Shown here one piece after another: positions 4,647 through 59,127 of a DNA stretch of 64,000 nucleotides. The stretch comes from a bacterium (lineage in GTDB: Bacteria > Myxococcota > UBA727 > JAUIJE01): the NCBI GenBank assembly GCA_030431455.1, contig JAUIJE010000001.1:744001-808000 (forward strand), written 5' to 3'. Below the pieces are notes generated by a model. The model saw nothing but the letters and a program-made list of their open reading frames with translations. It did not search any database and was not told the origin of the DNA. The number at the start of each line of letters is the position of its first letter. Position 1 is the stretch's first letter. The position numbers were made by a program, and so were the translations under genes.

Positions 4647-4774
4647 GGTCATTCCCTCGACGACAAGTGTACCCAAACCGCGGATGATTCTCGACGGGTG
4701 GGACACCAAAAAAACCGCGGGTTCTCGTCGGTGGCGCCGACGGTCGGGTCCCCGGTCAGCGCCCCCCCGGACAT

Positions 4775-4804
4775 AAAAAAGCCCCGGCACGAGGCCGGGG
4801 CTTT
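4775..4804 (-). terminator. Rho-independent terminator of the TSP3 protein gene
   Basis: On the minus strand a 7-bp GC stem (GCCCCGG at 4781-4787 with CCGGGGC at 4795-4801) is followed by six U residues (A-run at 4775-4780). It lies 25 bp past the stop of the 4830-6167 gene and insulates the VWA operon from it. Confidence 0.85.
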
Positions 4805-4829
4805 CCGTCACCAGAGAGAGAGTCGAGGC

Positions 4830-6167
4830 TTACTTCCGCCGGCGGCGGATGAGCAGCCCGGCGAACACCAGAGCGAACGCGCCGTACACCGCGGACGAGC
4901 TCTTCTGGGTGTGCATCGCGGAGCAGCCAGCCAGCGCGTCACCCTCGACGACGAGCGTCATGCGGTCTTCGCTGACGGTTTGGTCGGGGTAGGCTTCGTT
5001 GTCGCAGGCACCGTCGAGCACGTCGCAGAGCAGGGTGGCTTGCACTTTGACCACGTACTCGCCGGGGGTGTTGGCGATGAAGCGCGGCTCGTAGTCGCTG
5101 TCGTAGCGGAACTCGTACGCTTCAATGTCGGTGGCCGAGCCGCGCGGGTTCTGGATGCTGGCGTTGCCGTTGTCGGGCTGGCTCTCGATGCTCCAGGTGT
5201 AGCGCACCGGGATTTCGCGGTTGGCGAAGAGGTGCAGCAGCGGGTCCTGACCGGTTTGGATGAGGAGGTCGGGGCCGGTGAGGGCGGCGAAGGGCGCGTT
5301 GGGGTCGAGGCAGGCCTCCGGTTGCGCCGCGTCGATGACGAAGCAGAACCGGCTGTCGCAGGCCGCGCCGAAGCCGTCGCGGTCGTCGTCGCCTTGGGCC
5401 GGGTTGTACACCGCCGCGCAGTTGTCTTGGGTGTTGTCGATGCCGTCGTTGTCGAGGTCGCTGTCGCAGTCGTCGCCGATGAAGTCCTCGTCCGCGTCGA
5501 GCTGGGTCTGGTTGGCCACGCCCGGGCAGTTGTCGAGCTGGTCGGGGATGCCGTCCGCGTCTTCGTCATCGAAGCACTCGTTGGGGATGATGCCGCCGAG
5601 GTCGGCGCAGGAGGCCGCGGCCGCCAGCGGGCAGTTGTCCGCGGCGTCGAGGCAGCCGTCGTCGTCGTCGTCATCGTCGCAGGCGTTGCCGAGGCCGTCG
5701 CCGTCGAGGTTGTTCTGGGTGGGGTTCACCACCGTCCAGCAGTTGTCGAGGTCGTTCTCGATGCCGTCGTTGTCGGCGTCGCTGTCACAGGCATCGCCCA
5801 TGCCGTCGCCGTCGGAGTCGGTCTGCAGGTCGTTGGCGTTGGACACGCAGTTGTCGCAGCTGTCCCCGCGCCCGTCGCCGTCCGCGTCGACTTGGTCGGC
5901 GTTGGCCGCGAAGGGGCAGTTGTCGAAGTTGTCTTCGATGCCGTCGTCATCGTAGTCGTCGGCATATTGGTAGGAATCACCTTGGTCGGTGTAGTTGATG
6001 AGGATCGAGCCGCCGCCGCCGCAGCCGCCGCCGCCGCCGGATTGGTCGGGCGCGCCGCACATGGGGTCGGAGCTGGAGCCAGTACACTCGCCGTTGGGCG
6101 TTTGCGCCGAAGCCGGCAGGGCCAGGGCCACAATCGCAGTCGAAATCAGAATCGCCGTTTTTTGCAT
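4830..6167 (-). CDS. TSP3-repeat surface protein with MYXO-CTERM-like anchor
   Basis: A 445-residue secreted protein. The signal peptide ends at PASAQ (about residue 20), followed by a Gly-rich, Cys-containing stretch. Roughly eight thrombospondin type-3 repeats (DxDxDGxxDxxDNC) span residues 65-300; each is expected to hold calcium ions. A beta-sandwich-like segment follows, and the C-terminus is a tripartite sorting signal: a Cys (AGCSA), a hydrophobic helix and RRRRK. That arrangement matches the MYXO-CTERM class, in which the Cys is processed and the protein retained at the surface. The ATG at 6167 has GGGAGAG 5 nt upstream. It is monocistronic with its own terminator. The structural role is inferred from the repeats only. 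Confidence 0.85.
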
Positions 6168-49829: not shown

Positions 49830-50576
49830 TCAGCGCCCGGCGGCCCCCAAGAACGCCTGGAGGCGTTCGCTCTGCGGGGCGTCCAGCAGCTGGTGGGCCG
49901 GGCCGTCTTCGATGATGGCGCCGCCGTCCATAAAACAGATGCGGTGGGCGCCATCGCGCACGAACGCGAGGTCGTGGGTGACCATCACCATGGTGGTGCC
50001 CGCGTCGCTCAGCTCGTGCAACAGCGCCTGGAGGTCGGCGATGTTCTCGACGTCGAGGGCGGACGTGACCTCGTCGAGCAACAACACCCGCGGGGCCATG
50101 CAGAGGGCGCGGGCGATCGCCACCCGTTGCCGCTGTCCCCCCGACAGGGCCTGCACCCGGGCGCCGGCGCGGTCTTGCAGGCCGACCTGCGCGAGCAGGT
50201 CGCGGGCGCGGGCCTCGGCCTCGGCCCGGGGCTGCCCGAGCACGTGCACGGGGGCCTCGACGATGTTGTCCAGCGCGGAGAGGTGACCGAACAGGTGCAG
50301 GTGTTGAAACACCATGCCCACGTTGGCGCGGTGGGCGCTCAGGGCCTTGCCGGTGAGGGTGGTGGGCACGGTCTGGCCGTCGACGAGCAGGGTGCCCGCG
50401 TCCGGGCGTTCGAGGAGGTTGAGGCACCGCAGGGCGGTGCTCTTGCCCGCGCCGCTTTTGCCGATGAGGGCCACGATTTGGCGCTCGGGCACGGCGAGGG
50501 AAAAATCCTGCAGCACCGGGGTGTCGCCGAACCGCTTCTGCAGCCCGCGGGCTTCGAGGACCACCGGGCCGGTCAT
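49830..50576 (-). CDS. Polar amino-acid ABC transporter ATP-binding protein (GlnQ-like)
   Basis: A 248-residue ATPase: Walker A GKSGAGKS (39-46), FQHLHLFGHLSALDN (Q-loop), LSGGQRQRVAIARAL and VLLLDEVTSALD, H-loop VTHDLAF. Sequence features match GlnQ/HisP-type subunits. The ATG overlaps the stop of the SBP-permease fusion gene (ATGA), so both are made as one two-gene importer. Confidence 0.92.
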   Translation of the reverse strand: MTGPVVLEARGLQKRFGDTPVLQDFSLAVPERQIVALIGKSGAGKSTALRCLNLLERPDAGTLLVDGQTVPTTLTGKALSAHRANVGMVFQHLHLFGHLSALDNIVEAPVHVLGQPRAEAEARARDLLAQVGLQDRAGARVQALSGGQRQRVAIARALCMAPRVLLLDEVTSALDVENIADLQALLHELSDAGTTMVMVTHDLAFVRDGAHRICFMDGGAIIEDGPAHQLLDAPQSERLQAFLGAAGR

Positions 50577-51985
50577 GGGCTGTCCCCGTCGGTGCGGCGC
50601 TCGAGGCGTGAGACCGCGAGCGACAACGTGCCGATGATGACGACGTAAAAGGCCGCGGCGAGCAAAAACGGCAACAGCGCTTGGCCGGTCTGGAACACGA
50701 CGTTGCGCGCGGCGTAGCTCAGCTCGATCAAGGTGATGGCCCCGACCAGGGAGGTGTCTTTGACCAGCACCACGAGGTTGTTGCCGAACGACGGCAGCGC
50801 GGCCCGCAGGGCCTGGGGCAGAATGATGCGGCGCAGGGTCAGGCCCCGGGACATGCCCAAGGCCGCGGCTGCGTCCCACTGCCCGTCGTCGACCGCGAGG
50901 ATGCCGCCGCGCACGGTCTCGGCGTTGTAGGCGGTGGTGTTGGCCACCAAAGCGAACAGGGCGGCGCCGAACGGTCCCATGACCTCGGCCCCGAACAGCC
51001 GGTTGAAAAACGTCGCGACCGCGAAGTAGGCGATGAACAACTGGACGAGCAGCGGCGTGCCCCGCACCAGCCACACGTACAACTGGGCCAAGCGGGCGAG
51101 GGCCGCCCGACGGGAGATCGAGAGCAGCCCGATGAAGGTGCCGGTGACCAACGAGAGCAACGCGGTGAGCAGCGACAAGAGCAGCGTCCAGCCCGCGCCC
51201 TCGACGAGGAGGGGGAGCATCTGGCCCACGCGATCCGCGAACTGCGGGGCGGCCTTTTCCGGGGCGGCGTCGGCCGCGGGCCGCGCCTGGGGGAGCAACC
51301 CGACGTGGTCGCTCCACGACGACAAGAGCACATCGAGGGCGGGGGGGCTGCCCACCCAGCGCCGGTAGATTTGGGCATAGGTGCCGTCCTGGATCATGTC
51401 GAGCAAGGCGCGGTTGACCGCCTCGACCAGGGCGGTGTCGCTCTTGCGGGCGGCGATGCCGCAGGCTTCGCGGTAGAGCAGGTCGCCTTGTGCCTCGATG
51501 TCGTCGGTGCCGGCTTTGTGAATGTAAAAACCACCCACGATGCGATCGCTCACGAAGGCGTCGACCTTGTCGGTGCCGAGGGCGGCGATGATCTCGGCCT
51601 CGCTCCCGTAGCGCAGGATCTCGACGCCGGGAAAGTCGGCGGGGTGCTCGTGGACGTAGGTCGCGTACGTCGAGTCCTCGGTCACCCCCAGGCGCGCGCC
51701 GTCGAGGGAGGCGGTGCCCCGGCGGGCGAAGACCTGGGCCCCGCTGACGTAGTAGGGCAAGGAGAACTGCATGGTCTCTTGCCGCTCGTCGGTGATGGCC
51801 ATCGAGCCGCAGATGAGGTCGACCTTGCCGAGTTGCAGCGCGGCCTGGATGCCGGCCCAATCCACCTGCACGAGCTCGGCGGGGCGGTCGAGCCTGCGGG
51901 CGAGCTCGGTGGCGATGTCGGCGTCGAAGCCCACCAGCCGGCCCTGGTCATCGGTGGTGGAGAACGGCTGGAACGCCCCGGACAT
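50573..51985 (-). CDS. Polar amino-acid ABC importer: binding protein fused to permease; start codon unclear
   Basis: From the first ATG (51985) the product is 470 residues: a SBP_bac_3 domain (about 1-235; FQPFSTTDDQGRLVGFDADI, KVDLICGSMAITDERQETM) fused to a HisM-type permease (about 255-465; VRGTPLLVQLFIAYF, AYNAETVRGGI). But in the same frame upstream of the ATG, codons 51986-52087 read as a signal peptide (RNLFLVAFCTFSFTAFFAPRVEA), with no ATG, GTG or TTG before the stop at 52097-52099. The true start may be an ATC (52087) or CTG codon, or a frameshift separates the GTG at 52083. Without it the binding domain would not be exported. Confidence 0.8.
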   Translation of the reverse strand: MSGAFQPFSTTDDQGRLVGFDADIATELARRLDRPAELVQVDWAGIQAALQLGKVDLICGSMAITDERQETMQFSLPYYVSGAQVFARRGTASLDGARLGVTEDSTYATYVHEHPADFPGVEILRYGSEAEIIAALGTDKVDAFVSDRIVGGFYIHKAGTDDIEAQGDLLYREACGIAARKSDTALVEAVNRALLDMIQDGTYAQIYRRWVGSPPALDVLLSSWSDHVGLLPQARPAADAAPEKAAPQFADRVGQMLPLLVEGAGWTLLLSLLTALLSLVTGTFIGLLSISRRAALARLAQLYVWLVRGTPLLVQLFIAYFAVATFFNRLFGAEVMGPFGAALFALVANTTAYNAETVRGGILAVDDGQWDAAAALGMSRGLTLRRIILPQALRAALPSFGNNLVVLVKDTSLVGAITLIELSYAARNVVFQTGQALLPFLLAAAFYVVIIGTLSLAVSRLERRTDGDSP

Positions 51986-53796: not shown

Positions 53797-53923
53797 GTAG
53801 AGACCGGCGGATTTTTCCTTGTTTCCGCGGGGTTGCGGGCGCGCATGAGCGGGCGCCGCGGGTGTTTCAGATTCGGCCGACGTGACTCTTGCGGTGTCGC
53901 CGAATCGCGACGACGGGAGTCAA

Positions 53924-54400
53924 ATGGAAGAACGGATCGAAGTAAGCGGTGACATCACCATGGGCCCTCAGCTGTCCGCCGATGGGTGGGAGCGACTGGC
54001 CCAAGAGGGATACAAGACGGTGATCAACCTCAGCACCAAGGGCGAGCTTGGCCAGGTCAAGCCCGACGAAGAAGAAGCCTTGGTGCAGCAACATGGGATG
54101 CAGTACGTGCACTACCCCGTGTCGGTGAGCGCCTTGTCCCAAAAACACGTCGACGAGTTCTTGTCCCAGGTCGAGGGCGTCGCCATGCCCGCCTACGTGC
54201 ACTGTCGTCTCGGCCAGCGCTCGGGTCCCTTCGCGCTGATCTGGCACGCGGCCCGGCGGGGGCTGTCCTTTGCCCACGTGCGCAAAAAGGCCCAAAGCCT
54301 GGGCTTGTATTGGAACTCCCCGTTCTTGCCCGACTTCATCCGCCGATCCATCCAGCGGCTGCGCGAGGCGGAGCAGGCGGGCCACGAGGCCGCGGCCTAG
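53924..54400 (+). CDS. DUF442 (beta-lactamase-hydrolase-like) phosphatase-fold protein
   Basis: A 158-residue protein of the DUF442/BLH N-domain family: ISGDITMGPQLSADGW-like start (EVSGDITMGPQLSADGWE), VINLSTKGE, and the phosphatase loop HCRLGQRSG, with Cys as the nucleophile and Arg in the expected place. Some members act in sulfide or persulfide metabolism with sulfur dioxygenases, others as dual-specificity phosphatases. No dioxygenase is adjacent. ATG at 53924 has GGGAG upstream. The neighbouring operon contains APS kinase and a sulfotransferase, but in convergent orientation. Confidence 0.82.
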   Translation: MEERIEVSGDITMGPQLSADGWERLAQEGYKTVINLSTKGELGQVKPDEEEALVQQHGMQYVHYPVSVSALSQKHVDEFLSQVEGVAMPAYVHCRLGQRSGPFALIWHAARRGLSFAHVRKKAQSLGLYWNSPFLPDFIRRSIQRLREAEQAGHEAAA

Positions 54401-54481: not shown

Positions 54482-55105
54482 CTAGCCCGTCGTCGTCGTC
54501 GCTGAAAAGCGCGCGGACAGCGCCTCCACCACCTGCGCCACGCCTTCGGCCACCGTGTGGCGGGACGCATCCACCCGGGTCAGCGGGGCCGCGGGCTCGT
54601 CGTAGGGCGCGGACACACCGGTGAAGCGGTCGAGTTCGCCCCGCATCGCCTTCTTGTACAGGCCCTTCGGATCCCGGGCCGCGCACACCGAGAGCGGGGT
54701 GCTCACATGCACCAGCGCGAACCGTTCGGCGCCGATGATGTCCGCGGCCATCGCCCGCATCTCGCGGCGGGGGGAGATCAGGGCCACCACACACATCAAT
54801 CCAGCTTCATTGAACAGGCGCGCGGCACAGGCCGCGCGTCTGACGTTCTCGGTGCGGTCTTCGGCCGAAAAGCCCAAGCCCGCAGAGAGGCCGGTGCGCA
54901 GGTTGTCCCCGTCGAGGCGGGCGATGGCGCGCCCGGACTCGAACAGGTGCCGCTCGAGGGCGATGGCGAGGGTGGTCTTGCCGCTGGCCGACAGGCCGGT
55001 GAGCCAAATCGTGCGGGGGTCGGTGTGGTACCGCATCGCGCGGTCCGCGGCCGACACTTGGCCCGCGGTGGGGAACAGCAACCGCGCCGCGTCCGGTGGC
55101 GTCAT
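54482..55105 (-). CDS. cysC: Adenylylsulfate (APS) kinase
   Basis: A 207-residue kinase that phosphorylates APS to PAPS. P-loop GLSASGKT (37-44), APS-binding LDGDNLRTGL, ENVRRAA and SPRREMRA, and the phosphosulfate signature KGLYKKA are present. It is the last gene of a five-gene operon containing a PAPS-dependent sulfotransferase, so PAPS here is probably for sulfation, not sulfate reduction; ATP sulfurylase is not in the window. The ATG overlaps the upstream transporter stop (ATGA). Confidence 0.93.
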   Translation of the reverse strand: MTPPDAARLLFPTAGQVSAADRAMRYHTDPRTIWLTGLSASGKTTLAIALERHLFESGRAIARLDGDNLRTGLSAGLGFSAEDRTENVRRAACAARLFNEAGLMCVVALISPRREMRAMAADIIGAERFALVHVSTPLSVCAARDPKGLYKKAMRGELDRFTGVSAPYDEPAAPLTRVDASRHTVAEGVAQVVEALSARFSATTTTG

Positions 55106-55995
55106 CTCACCCCCGTCCGGGCCGCGCCCACCACCGCCGCGCCCACCACCGCCACGCCCACCAGGGCGCTCGGCCGGGGCTGCTCGTCGAGGAGGATCGC
55201 GGACAGGGCGATGCCGAAGGCGGGCATCAACCAGCCCGCGGTGCTCACAAACCGGACCCCGTGCCGCGCGGCCTGCCACGCGCGGAGCGAAAGCGCCGCC
55301 GCGGTCGGGCCCAGCCCGAGCCAGGCCACCGCGCCGGCCGCCTCGGGGTCGGCGGGCATGGTGCCGTCGACCAGCGCCCAGGCCCCGGCCGCGAAAAGCG
55401 CCCCATACCCGGCGCCGTGGGCGGCGAGGCGCACCGGACCGAGGTGGGCCGCGCGCCGGATGAGCACCCCGGCGGCGGCGTACGAGGCCAAGGCCGCCAC
55501 CACCAGCAGGGCGGGGCCGAGGGGCAGGCCCGTCGACCACGGGGTGCGCCCCACGATGACAAAGCCGCCCGCGCAGCCCGCGGCCAGGACCCCGAGGGTG
55601 GCGAGGCGGGGGCGTTCGTCGTCGAGAAACACGCTGGCCACCACCGTGGCCACCACCGGCCCGAGGCAGACCAGGGCGGCGGTGTCCGCGCCGGTGAGCG
55701 CGGTCTGGGCATGGGCAAACAATGAATAGGGAAGCGCAAAATAGAGCAGCCCGAGCCCGGCCCCGAGGGCGACCGGGACGGGGGGCCGCGGCGGGCCCTG
55801 GCCGGCGGTGACCGCGAGCAGGGCCGCGGCCCCGACGAGCAACCGCCCGGCGGTGACCGCCCACGGGCTGAGCGGCGACAGCGCGACCTCGGTGGCCACG
55901 AACGACGATGCGAACAGGCCGGCGCTGGCCACGAGCCACACGACGTCGAGGGGGCGCGGCGGGGTCAAGGCGGGGGCGGGCACGGCGGGCCTCAA
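55102..55995 (-). CDS. EamA/DMT-superfamily transporter
   Basis: A 297-residue integral membrane protein with about ten helices in two EamA repeats (VVWLVASAGLFASSFVATEVAL and the second half around LVVAALASYAAAGVLIRR). Members export amino acids, nucleotide sugars or metabolites. The TTG at 55995 overlaps the sulfotransferase stop; a GTG at 55983 is an alternative start. In this operon it might export the sulfated product or bring in an acceptor. Confidence 0.88.
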   Translation of the reverse strand: MRPAVPAPALTPPRPLDVVWLVASAGLFASSFVATEVALSPLSPWAVTAGRLLVGAAALLAVTAGQGPPRPPVPVALGAGLGLLYFALPYSLFAHAQTALTGADTAALVCLGPVVATVVASVFLDDERPRLATLGVLAAGCAGGFVIVGRTPWSTGLPLGPALLVVAALASYAAAGVLIRRAAHLGPVRLAAHGAGYGALFAAGAWALVDGTMPADPEAAGAVAWLGLGPTAAALSLRAWQAARHGVRFVSTAGWLMPAFGIALSAILLDEQPRPSALVGVAVVGAAVVGAARTGVR

Positions 55996-56843
55996 TGCAA
56001 AAACGCCGGGAGCCGGAGCTCGATGTGGGGCAGCGGCCGGGGCCGGCGGGCGGCGCGGGCCAGGCGCTGGCGCATCGCGGGGGTGAGCAGGTCGCCCCGG
56101 GAGGCGGCCGCGGCGCGGATGAATCCCGCGCGGGGGGCGCCCCCGTCGACGGTGGCGTGGTCAAAACACGCTTCGTGGGTTTTCATGAACGAGCGGTGGG
56201 TGCGGGCCACCGCCCCGTCCACCGTCGCCTCGTCCGGGGCGAGGCCCAAGTGTTGGGCGATGCGGCGGGCGGCGGCCGCGGGCTGGCCGCAGAGTTCGTC
56301 GTAGTCGATGCGCAGCACGCGAGGCTGTCGCCGGGCCGCGCGCTGGTAAGCGGCATTGTGTTTGAAGTAGCAACGGTACTGCACGTCGCCGCGCAGGAAC
56401 GCGCGAAAGAACGCGGCGAAGTCGCGGTCGTCGTCGAGGTGGGTGCGGTAGAGGTGATGGTACGAGACCACCACGTCCTCCACCGGGCGGGTGAGGTAGA
56501 GGACGCGGCCGGCGCGGGGCAGATGACCCACCCCAAGGTGGGTCTTGAACACCCGGGGCCCGGGTCGCGCGTTGAGGGCCTCGGCGGTGTGGCGGCCCCG
56601 GGCCAGGTCCCGCTCGAACCAGGGGGTGACGTCCGCGATGTGGCGGAAGCCCGGCGGCGCCGACAACGGACGCTGGGCCTCGTCGGGGTGGAGCAACAAC
56701 CAGATCAGGTGTTGGGTGCGGGTCGTGCCAGATCGTGGATAGCTGGCGACGTAGATGTCGTCGGGGCGGGGCACGAACCGGCGCCGTTCGCGCAGGTAGC
56801 GGCAGGTGCGCCCGGCGTCGCCGAGGAGGTCGCCGCCGGTCAT
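55992..56843 (-). CDS. PAPS-dependent sulfotransferase
   Basis: A 283-residue sulfotransferase. The 5'-phosphosulfate loop is VASYPRSGTT (32-41), and the 3'-phosphate-binding motif is YLTRPVEDVVVSYHH (Arg120, Ser128). The layout is that of cytosolic (Sulfotransfer_1) enzymes; a FRAFLRGDVQYR region precedes a GxxGxxK-type C-terminus that is poorly conserved. It transfers sulfate from PAPS to a hydroxyl or amine. ATG overlaps the L,D-transpeptidase stop, and APS kinase is encoded two genes downstream. Confidence 0.9.
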   Translation of the reverse strand: MTGGDLLGDAGRTCRYLRERRRFVPRPDDIYVASYPRSGTTRTQHLIWLLLHPDEAQRPLSAPPGFRHIADVTPWFERDLARGRHTAEALNARPGPRVFKTHLGVGHLPRAGRVLYLTRPVEDVVVSYHHLYRTHLDDDRDFAAFFRAFLRGDVQYRCYFKHNAAYQRAARRQPRVLRIDYDELCGQPAAAARRIAQHLGLAPDEATVDGAVARTHRSFMKTHEACFDHATVDGGAPRAGFIRAAAASRGDLLTPAMRQRLARAARRPRPLPHIELRLPAFLH

Positions 56844-58198
56844 GTGTCCCTCGTGAAGTAGAACCATGTGCCCGGCCGGCCCACCATCCCGTGCCAGCCC
56901 GCGGGCACCTCCGGCGTCGACCAGTGGTACAGCCAGCGGGCGTCGCGGGGGGCGAGGTTGGTGCAGCCGTGGCTGCGCACGTTGCCGAAGATGTTGTGCC
57001 AGTAGGCGCCGTGCACGGCGAAGCCGCCCTTGTAATACATCGTCCAGGGCACGTCCTCGATGTGGTAGCGGCCCACGTCGGGGTCGGGGCCGACCATGGT
57101 CTTGGTGAGGTATTTGCGCCGTACGCGGTAGGTGCCGGTGGGGGTGGCGAACCGTTCGATGCCGGACGAAATGAGCGAGGCGTAGACCGGGGTGCGGCCC
57201 TCGTAGGCGACGAAGGTCTGTTCGTCGAGGTTGAAGTGCACCCACTTGTCCCCTTTGAACTTGGCCCGCGGCAGGGGCCGGGCCCGGGCGACCCGCACCC
57301 GGTCCCGGGGCACGAAGCGGCCGTCGCGGGTGGTCACATACGCAGCGCCGTCCAGGGTGACCTCGTCATCGATGGAGAACCGCGCGTGTTTCTCTGCGGT
57401 CCCGCAGGGGGACAAGCCACCCCCGGCGGCGGGGCAATACACCGGCGCGCCCTCCTCGACGTGCACAAACGCGAGGGGCAGCACGTCGGGGCCCGCGAGC
57501 GCGACCCCGAAAAAGAGCGGCATGGTCTTGTCTTCGTATTCCGCCCGCACCCACTGACCGGCCACGGTCTTTTGCAACACGACGTCCCCCACCGTGCGGG
57601 TCTCGTCGGTGAGCGACAGCCAATACGCCCCGTCGGTGGTTTCGTCGGCCCACGGCAGCTGCCGCACCGCGTGGTCGGGGGCGCGGGCCACAAACCGCAG
57701 GGCGCGGGGGGAGGGCAGCTTGTTCCACAGCACCGCGTCGGTGGGCGCGACCTTCTTGTACACGTGGGGGAAGGCCTCGTCGGACCGGGGCCGCAGCCGG
57801 TCGTCGTCGCGGCGGGGGGGGCGCGGGCCGAGGGCGACGATGCGCCGGCCCACACACACATAGCCTCCGTCGACCTTGTACCAGCGGCCCCGCCGGCCGT
57901 GGTCGCGGCAGCGCCGGGACGTGCGGGTGGCGGGCAGCACGCTGTCCTCGGCGAGGCGCCCGAGCACACGTTTGCGCGACCCCGCGCGCGCGCTCCACAC
58001 CGGCGCGAGGTGGTCGCGCGCCTTGATGCTGCGGCGGGCGGTGGCGGCGGGCCAGGGCGGCGCCTCAAACACCGGGACATAAGCATTGGGATCGGGCGCG
58101 GCCAGCGCCACCCGGTCCGGGGGATCGGCGTCGACCCCGGGGGCCAAGAGCCCGACCGCGCCGAGGGTGAGCAGGGTGGTGATGCGAAGGCGGGTCAC
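56840..58198 (-). CDS. L,D-transpeptidase (YkuD family)
   Basis: A 452-residue exported enzyme. Signal peptide (ITTLLTLGAVGLLAPGVDA), a long N-terminal region with Arg-rich repeats and six Cys (possible disulfide-rich domain), and the C-terminal YkuD domain with HGAYWHNIFGNVRSHGC; SHGC is at 409-412 with Cys412 the nucleophile. It forms 3-3 or Lpp-type cross-links in peptidoglycan. GTG start at 58198 overlaps the upstream gene stop, and the stop overlaps the sulfotransferase start. The coupling with sulfation genes is unusual. Confidence 0.9.
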   Translation of the reverse strand: MTRLRITTLLTLGAVGLLAPGVDADPPDRVALAAPDPNAYVPVFEAPPWPAATARRSIKARDHLAPVWSARAGSRKRVLGRLAEDSVLPATRTSRRCRDHGRRGRWYKVDGGYVCVGRRIVALGPRPPRRDDDRLRPRSDEAFPHVYKKVAPTDAVLWNKLPSPRALRFVARAPDHAVRQLPWADETTDGAYWLSLTDETRTVGDVVLQKTVAGQWVRAEYEDKTMPLFFGVALAGPDVLPLAFVHVEEGAPVYCPAAGGGLSPCGTAEKHARFSIDDEVTLDGAAYVTTRDGRFVPRDRVRVARARPLPRAKFKGDKWVHFNLDEQTFVAYEGRTPVYASLISSGIERFATPTGTYRVRRKYLTKTMVGPDPDVGRYHIEDVPWTMYYKGGFAVHGAYWHNIFGNVRSHGCTNLAPRDARWLYHWSTPEVPAGWHGMVGRPGTWFYFTRDT

Positions 58199-59127
58199 CG
58201 TTGCATCGCCCCCGGTCGCGGCGCGGACGCGTCGGCGTGGCCGGCGGCCCGGGCGAAAAACTGGTCGTAGAGGGCGGGCAGACGCGCCTCGAGCGGTCCC
58301 TGGAGCGGCGCGATCTCTTCGGACCACAGGCGGGCGATGGCCTTGAGGTGGCGGCGGACCCCGGCGAGCACCAACGGGGGCGCGTGGCGGTGGGCCGCGA
58401 GCTGGGCCGCGGGGTCGACGTGGTCGCGCAACAACACCCGGGCGGTCTCGGATGCAGCCACATAGGGAATGGCCCGTGGCCGGCGGGGGTCGAAGGTGCG
58501 ACCCGGCCGGGTGTACCAAAAGCCCAGCCCCGGGTGCGCCCGGCGGCGCAGGGGCCAGTCGAACGCCATCTCGTCGAAGCGTCCCCACGCCACGTGGTCG
58601 GCCAACGACCAGCCGACCTTGAGCAGGGGGCCGCGGGTCCTTTGCAGGTGCAGCAGGTCGGCGACCTGCAGCCGGCAGTAGTCGCTCGCGTCGGGCGGAC
58701 ACAGCGCGGCGGCGTCGGCCCGGGCCGCGGCGTGTCCGGCCTCGGCGTGGAGGGCGTGGGCCCGTTGCACGACGACGCGCACGCCGGGGCTCAACCGCGC
58801 GAACCGATCGAGCACCCCGCGCCACTCCGCGGTGCGGGCCTGGACCCGGAGGGAGCGCGCGCCCGCGTCCTCGGCGTGGGCATCGGCGACGAGGATGAGC
58901 AGCGGGGCGTGCACCAGCCGCGCGGCCCGGTGCGCGGTCAGCAGCAGACCGAGCACGTCGAGGGGGGGGCCGACGCTGAGGCCATGCCGGCCGCACAGCC
59001 CGATGCCGACGAACACCAGGCGGGGCTCGTCGAGGCACGACCCCCCGACAACCGACGGGTGGGTCCGAATCAGGGTCTGTTGGCGCGCGGCGTGGTAGAG
59101 CCGGCGCCGAATGGCTTCGCGCGGCAT
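58195..59127 (-). CDS. Unrecognised cytosolic protein, first gene of the sulfation operon
   Basis: A 310-residue protein without signal peptide. The N-terminal half alternates hydrophobic strands and helices like a Rossmann-type fold (EPRLVFVGIGLCG, HAPLLILVADAHAED); the ADAHA segment recalls the class I tRNA-synthetase ADLHA element, and the central DYCRLQVADLLHL with KVGWS could match its later motifs. No HIGH or KMSKS motif is clear, so this is only a weak resemblance and could be chance. The ATG at 59127 has little SD. It overlaps the L,D-transpeptidase gene (GTGA). Confidence 0.65.
   Translation of the reverse strand: MPREAIRRRLYHAARQQTLIRTHPSVVGGSCLDEPRLVFVGIGLCGRHGLSVGPPLDVLGLLLTAHRAARLVHAPLLILVADAHAEDAGARSLRVQARTAEWRGVLDRFARLSPGVRVVVQRAHALHAEAGHAAARADAAALCPPDASDYCRLQVADLLHLQRTRGPLLKVGWSLADHVAWGRFDEMAFDWPLRRRAHPGLGFWYTRPGRTFDPRRPRAIPYVAASETARVLLRDHVDPAAQLAAHRHAPPLVLAGVRRHLKAIARLWSEEIAPLQGPLEARLPALYDQFFARAAGHADASAPRPGAMQR

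Follow-up and report, generated by a model that had tools for sequence, protein, structure and literature searches.

Bacterial tyrosine sulfation of the RaxST type, with genes that make 3′-phosphoadenosine 5′-phosphosulfate (PAPS), is known. Class-I aminoacyl-tRNA synthetases have given rise to synthetase-like proteins that are typically found in small-molecule clusters; the cyclodipeptide synthases (CDPSs) have lost the HIGH motif and gained GxSxxN, and MshC, a cysteinyl-tRNA synthetase paralog of mycothiol synthesis, is thought to adenylate cysteine itself (PMC2922099). In the CDPSs, the anchor for the first aminoacyl group consists of Y178 and E182 (PMC5935735), and L,D-transpeptidases, which act on the cell wall, can swap the terminal D-Ala of the stem for free D-amino acids (PMC9638812). 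The locus analyzed here is a five-gene operon in a 64,000-nucleotide stretch of a Myxococcota genome (GCA_030431455.1, contig JAUIJE010000001.1, positions 744,001 to 808,000; hereafter the window), which encodes a protein without known family (X), a YkuD-type L,D-transpeptidase (YkuD), a sulfotransferase (ST), an EamA transporter, and the adenosine 5′-phosphosulfate (APS) kinase CysC (Table 1). In six Myxococcota genomes, the window's included, relatives of X, ST, and YkuD are direct neighbors, a linkage that exceeds chance. That this trio recurs in five or more distant relatives suggests a pathway, so far undescribed, for making a sulfated amino-acid product tied to the cell envelope. The conserved unit has at its core X, which the initial annotation had listed as "unknown" and which, by its modeled fold, is predicted to be tyrosyl-tRNA-synthetase-like.

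Conservation of the X–ST–YkuD trio

Searches with X, ST, and YkuD as queries covered 97 related genomes, and the sample comprises 98 when the window's genome (7.7 Mb, 96.9% complete, its named relatives being Myxococcota metagenome-assembled genomes, MAGs) is counted. Strong relatives of the three proteins occur in exactly the same four of the 98 genomes (the window's, G027, G034, and G040) and are adjacent in each; the chance of such a co-occurrence is about 3e-7 per pair, assuming independent genomes. A pattern scan with an alignment of X, run on 84,980 species, returned six loci, including two further Myxococcota trios (L020 and L021) and an archaeal locus (L025), and a genome scan with the single X sequence returned none. 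The trio is thus adjacent in all six X-bearing bacterial genomes, all of them Myxococcota, and X itself is rare (4 of 195 genomes in a phylum-wide profile search). Pairwise identities across genomes are low, namely 31–41% for X, 39–50% for ST, and 34–42% for YkuD (leaving out a second YkuD of G034), which indicates that the linkage has survived deep divergence or repeated transfer. Six-taxon trees of the three proteins are poorly resolved, those of X and ST pairing the window with L020 and that of YkuD not doing so.

The arrangement of the trio varies. In L020, the order is EamA–YkuD–ST–X, all co-directional, with overlaps between YkuD and ST and between ST and X; YkuD is divergent from X–ST in L021, G027, and G040, the last with an EamA gene also beside YkuD, and from ST–X in G034. 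The search for conserved synteny of cysC, Sulfotransfer_1, EamA, and YkuD that the initial annotation had proposed bears out ST with YkuD in every X-bearing bacterial genome, EamA in part, and cysC not at all: an APS kinase gene is linked to the trio in the window only, every trio genome encoding at least one elsewhere, and EamA accompanies it in three of the six. The EamA copies of G040 and L020 are mutually related (E 4e-26), and that of the window belongs to a different lineage, so EamA was rejected as a single conserved ortholog; conserved synteny of all five families was likewise rejected, X, ST, and YkuD alone being conserved. Neighbors of the trio include a gene for a major facilitator superfamily protein resembling the AmpG-family muropeptide transporters (G034; L006:12570-14066) and an M23 peptidase gene (L021:11070-12584), which lend mild support to a link with the wall.

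Predicted fold and motifs of protein X

The window X has no match in Pfam or NCBIfam, and none of seven X members matches any Pfam family, that of the CDPSs included. A likeness to class-Ic synthetases was spotted from sequence ahead of modeling, and the AlphaFold2 models (pLDDT 71.5 with a four-sequence alignment; pLDDT 82.5 and pTM 0.85 with seven sequences) both have exclusively tyrosyl- and tryptophanyl-tRNA synthetases (TyrRS and TrpRS) among their 50 best Foldseek matches in the PDB (best E 1.1e-5 and 1.2e-6, respectively). TM scores to these enzymes are about 0.5, which points to a common core with a different periphery. Marginal profile matches point in the same direction (TyrRS PRK08560, E 0.0069, for the archaeal member; the CDPS model TIGR04539, E 0.15); PDB sequences searched with an X profile yielded chance matches only, and aligning this profile by hhalign with individual TyrRS and TrpRS sequences of the same genome, a comparison with no deep synthetase profile behind it, gave nothing significant.

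At the position of HIGH, the P, D, L, and G of the PxDxLG segment are invariant in the seven aligned homologs, and in member P0008 the loop is devoid of any His. In the second motif, Y150 and D157 are invariant (7/7) and residue 154 is Q in five members and E in two; the TyrRS of the same genome reads Y-P-L-A-Q-G-Y-D, with identical spacing. In MjTyrRS, the tyrosine hydroxyl is bound by two residues, Asp158 of this motif and Tyr32 (PMC9499402). The invariant Asp of X falls at the position that reads this hydroxyl in TyrRS. The putative Tyr32 position, placed by manual alignment with MjTyrRS, is Tyr or Phe in X. KMSKS is replaced by a loop G-R-x-L-D-x-R-x-P-[RK]-A-x-P-Y, in which one basic residue is kept in all seven members, and neither the model nor Pfam reveals an anticodon-binding domain in X, whose members are 257–342 aa long. 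Canonical TyrRS and TrpRS are encoded elsewhere in the genome, so X is an extra paralog, and this, together with the predicted synthetase fold and the kept tyrosine-pocket motif, favors an amino acid as the ligand, most likely tyrosine; the reaction we infer.

By the features tested, X is neither a canonical synthetase nor a CDPS, and it appears, as modeled, to be built on the same fold. A genuine CDPS, whose tyrosine-containing cyclodipeptide would then be sulfated by ST, could explain the common fold class, the loss of HIGH, the Y-x3-E anchor in two X members, and the weak TIGR04539 match; however, the strictly conserved catalytic Ser of these enzymes (S37, in GxSxxN) corresponds to the invariant G43 of X, and the Pfam CDPS model matches none of the seven members, which makes this explanation very improbable.

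APS kinase and the supply of PAPS

A search of the genome for APS kinases gave a single match, the operon CysC, the only intact copy found. At C5, two PF01507 proteins, CysH and CysD, precede CysN and cysteine synthase (cysK). CysH carries CCRIRKVEPL and SIGCAPCT, conforming to CCxxRKxxPL and SxGCxxCT, two motifs that distinguish APS reductases from PAPS reductases, which lack them (PMC3125206); in agreement, it scores higher with the APS reductase model TIGR02055 (227.7 bits) than with the PAPS reductase model TIGR02057 (169.9 bits), neither score reaching the curated cut-off. CysN (G000:C5, L029:6077-8113, minus strand) has a C-terminal APS-kinase-like extension that the APS kinase family model does not detect; it aligns with the operon CysC at a score of 95 (1000 shuffles: mean 31, standard deviation 5.4, maximum 60), resembles it more than either of two other APS kinases compared, and no longer has a Walker A motif (WLSGKGPRLEF against WLTGLSASGKTTLA). 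These traits suggest a CysNC fusion as the origin of the operon kinase, with later decay of the fused domain. With an APS-type CysH and a derelict kinase domain in CysN, PAPS should be dispensable for assimilation in this genome, and a role of the operon cysC in assimilation, the case in which the initial annotation would have failed, was rejected on these two grounds. Its claim that the kinase feeds PAPS to ST gains from the operon holding both the sole intact kinase and the sole sulfotransferase detected, and the operon CysC as a dedicated PAPS supply for ST is well supported.

The contrary explanation, that CysC is a sulfate-assimilation enzyme and the operon a chance grouping, could draw on the absence of any other intact APS kinase and on cysC being unlinked to the trio in other genomes. 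It is scarcely credible given that the CysH with both APS-reductase motifs sits elsewhere with cysD, cysN, and cysK, and that the trio linkage is kept at 31–50% protein identity. An Inositol_P family search for a phosphatase of 3′-phosphoadenosine 5′-phosphate (CysQ) gave two matches, not distinguishable from inositol phosphatases.

Sulfotransferase

ST matches PF00685 with 109.4 bits against a cut-off of 22, and its best PDB matches are the animal SULT1 phenol, aryl, and estrogen sulfotransferases (SULT1A/1C/1B/1E). No signal peptide was seen in it. The basic 5′-phosphosulfate-binding residue, the catalytic His, and the 3′-phosphate-binding Ser are present (YPRSGTT, KTHL, and VVSYHH), and ST is, by family and catalytic residues, a predicted PAPS-dependent sulfotransferase in which two features of the PAPS site deviate. 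The genome encodes one Sulfotransfer_1 protein, that of the operon, and no further Sulfotransfer_3 protein, these being the sulfotransferase families searched. All six trio STs end in the tripeptide F-L-H (55992-56003 in the window).

ST might alternatively sulfate a tyrosine of a protein or peptide, or a lipid, X being a non-catalytic sensor of tyrosine or tRNA, or a scaffold. Some synthetase paralogs act as regulators, HIGH and KMSKS are lost in X, and RaxST-type sulfation with its PAPS-making genes offers a precedent; nevertheless, the putative amino-acid pocket of X is invariant in the bacteria and the archaeon, the best solved relatives of ST are SULT enzymes, and a small secreted peptide gene was not seen in the operon, so we regard this explanation as clearly improbable.

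Proposed pathway and its weighing

The reading that we prefer, with somewhat less than even confidence, is that the operon encodes a dedicated sulfation pathway around X, ST, and YkuD, in which the product of X and ST is exported for the periplasmic transpeptidase to handle. The APS kinase, judging from its family and the genome context, would convert APS to PAPS. X, from its predicted fold, may bind tyrosine or a tyrosine-like aminoacyl group, probably donated by an aminoacyl-tRNA as in the CDPSs, and transfer or ligate it to an acceptor; ST would sulfate the X product, most simply at the phenol oxygen, and EamA may export the sulfated compound. In what is the weakest step, the L,D-transpeptidase would join the product to peptidoglycan stem peptides or remodel the wall around it. 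Speculatively, D-Ala exchange chemistry could let a free amino compound into the wall, with X/ST products as acceptors. A sulfated wall is our hypothesis, and we infer both the product and its link to the wall. The more specific proposal, that X stands for an additional functional class among class-Ic synthetase-like enzymes, distinct from both tRNA synthetases and CDPSs, transferring tyrosine or a relative toward a sulfated compound that the L,D-transpeptidase puts into peptidoglycan, is doubtful and rather unlikely.

YkuD has its catalytic domain at residues 318-429 (PF03734, 68.5 bits), preceded by an N-terminal signal-like segment and an accessory region, and its close relatives (>240 bits) are confined to X-bearing genomes among the 98. 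One of these, G034, holds a second relative (L010:7942-9255, G034:C456), 54% identical to the trio copy, without X or ST.

Several observations weigh against the proposed pathway. YkuD is divergently transcribed from X and ST in four of the six genomes, related YkuD proteins are widespread in Myxococcota without X or ST, and EamA is no conserved partner of the trio. The window ST, unlike its orthologs, has R for W in PRSGTTW, the Trp after SGTT being absent, and the C-terminal RxGxxG region, FLRQGxxGxG in most orthologs, reads FIRAAAASRGD. The evidence for kinship of X with TyrRS consists of a predicted fold (TM about 0.5) and a marginal sequence signal. Finally, the archaeal X has neither ST nor YkuD nearby, in a group without peptidoglycan: on the Micrarchaeota MAG contig, which also holds HerA and Rad50-like genes, the X homolog overlaps a HisC/CobD-like class I/II aminotransferase gene (L025:4008-4781 and 4774-5778), pointing to an amino-acid chemistry independent of walls.

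In a different role, X and ST would make a secreted sulfated aminoacyl small molecule (a signal, an antibiotic, or a siderophore-like compound) and YkuD would be co-regulated for self-protection or wall remodeling, the product not being its substrate. X and ST are direct neighbors with the same orientation in all these genomes but the window's, in which YkuD separates them; besides the divergent YkuD genes, EamA transporter genes recur near the trio, and small-molecule clusters are the typical home of derived class-I synthetase-like proteins (PMC2922099). We nevertheless hold this role to be somewhat unlikely, since YkuD is present in six of six genomes, with its close relatives restricted to the X-bearing ones among the 98, and the clusters lack the additional tailoring enzymes that are usual in natural-product loci.

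Operon layout

The five overlapping reading frames and the four families named in the initial annotation (YkuD, Sulfotransfer_1, EamA, and APS_kinase, by Pfam) were all confirmed. The 4-nt overlaps are GTGA (58195-58198), ATGA (56840-56843), TTGA (55992-55995), and ATGA (55102-55105); that between ST and EamA hinges on the TTG start, as a GTG 12 nt downstream would instead leave a gap of about 8 nt. The flanking genes, a CBS-domain gene from 59472 and a phosphatase-like gene at 53882-54400, are both on the plus strand, so the operon consists of exactly five genes. At 50573-51985 (minus strand), the window also holds an amino-acid ATP-binding cassette transporter reading frame in which substrate-binding protein and permease appear fused on visual inspection of the translation; the gene of its ATPase comes next.

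Table 1. Genes of the operon and sequence motifs of their products, in window coordinates.
Feature	Position	Strand	Description and basis
X	58195..59127	-	310 aa open reading frame; class-Ic aminoacyl-tRNA-synthetase-like by predicted fold; no known family
YkuD L,D-transpeptidase	56840..58198	-	452 aa; GTG start; PF03734 E 1.3e-18
SULT-type sulfotransferase (ST)	55992..56843	-	283 aa; PF00685 (Sulfotransfer_1) E 2.7e-31
EamA (DMT superfamily) transporter	55102..55995	-	297 aa; TTG start; PF00892 E 3.9e-23, two repeats
APS kinase CysC	54482..55105	-	207 aa; PF01583 E 5.9e-56; TIGR00455 over cut-off
P-x-D-x-L-G, X residues 55-60	58948..58965	-	HIGH position by manual alignment; no His pair
Y-x3-[Q/E]-x2-D, X residues 150-157	58657..58680	-	Matches TyrRS tyrosine-binding motif; alignment
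S-H-G-C, YkuD catalytic site	56963..56974	-	Kept in 7/7 aligned YkuD relatives
YPRSGTT, 5′-phosphosulfate-binding loop of ST	56721..56741	-	Sequence, alignment
GLSASGKT, Walker A of APS kinase	54974..54997	-	Sequence

Significance and comparison with known systems

For an unannotated protein family common to Myxococcota and an archaeon, the analysis predicts the fold and names a probable class of substrate, and it provides a case of PAPS production split from assimilation, the kinase fused to CysN having decayed and a stand-alone kinase residing in a sulfation operon. If true, the proposed pathway joins a reprogrammed tRNA-synthetase fold, SULT-type sulfation, and L,D-transpeptidation, a combination for which we know of no precedent, in a compact route to possibly sulfated peptidoglycan or to a new sulfated aminoacyl metabolite. 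The open-access literature, within which the search was made, yielded no report of YkuD–sulfotransferase clusters, of sulfated peptidoglycan, or of a synthetase-like protein paired with a sulfotransferase.

As in NodPQ–NodH type sulfation, PAPS making in the operon would serve a particular sulfotransferase. The same holds for RaxP/RaxQ–RaxST; RaxST, however, is modeled on TPST2 and acts on a peptide, whereas the operon ST is SULT-like and stands beside a synthetase-like protein and a transpeptidase. With the YkuD L,D-transpeptidases, the operon enzyme has in common the HGxxWHxxFGxxxSHGCxN core and the signal-like N-terminus, and it differs as a distinct subfamily with an N-terminal accessory region and a tie to X and ST. 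MshC resembles X, as proposed here, as a class-I synthetase paralog drafted into small-molecule synthesis, but it probably adenylates cysteine itself, and X lacks HIGH. X, as modeled, and the CDPSs (AlbC, Rv2275 family) have in common a class-Ic-derived domain without ATP motifs and, in part, a Y-x3-[Q/E] aminoacyl anchor, whose Glu is kept in two of the seven X members; they part at the catalytic Ser, in place of which X has an invariant Gly (G41-x-G43, 7/7), and in their gene neighbors, P450 or oxidase genes for the CDPSs and ST and YkuD for X. The class-Ic domain of TyrRS and TrpRS, finally, matches X in predicted fold, in the Y-x3-Q-x2-D motif, in an "ADxHA" segment, and in the framework on the KMSKS side, whereas X is without HIGH, KMSKS, and the anticodon-binding domain, and its loop after strand 1 is about seven residues longer and carries the invariant PxDxLG.

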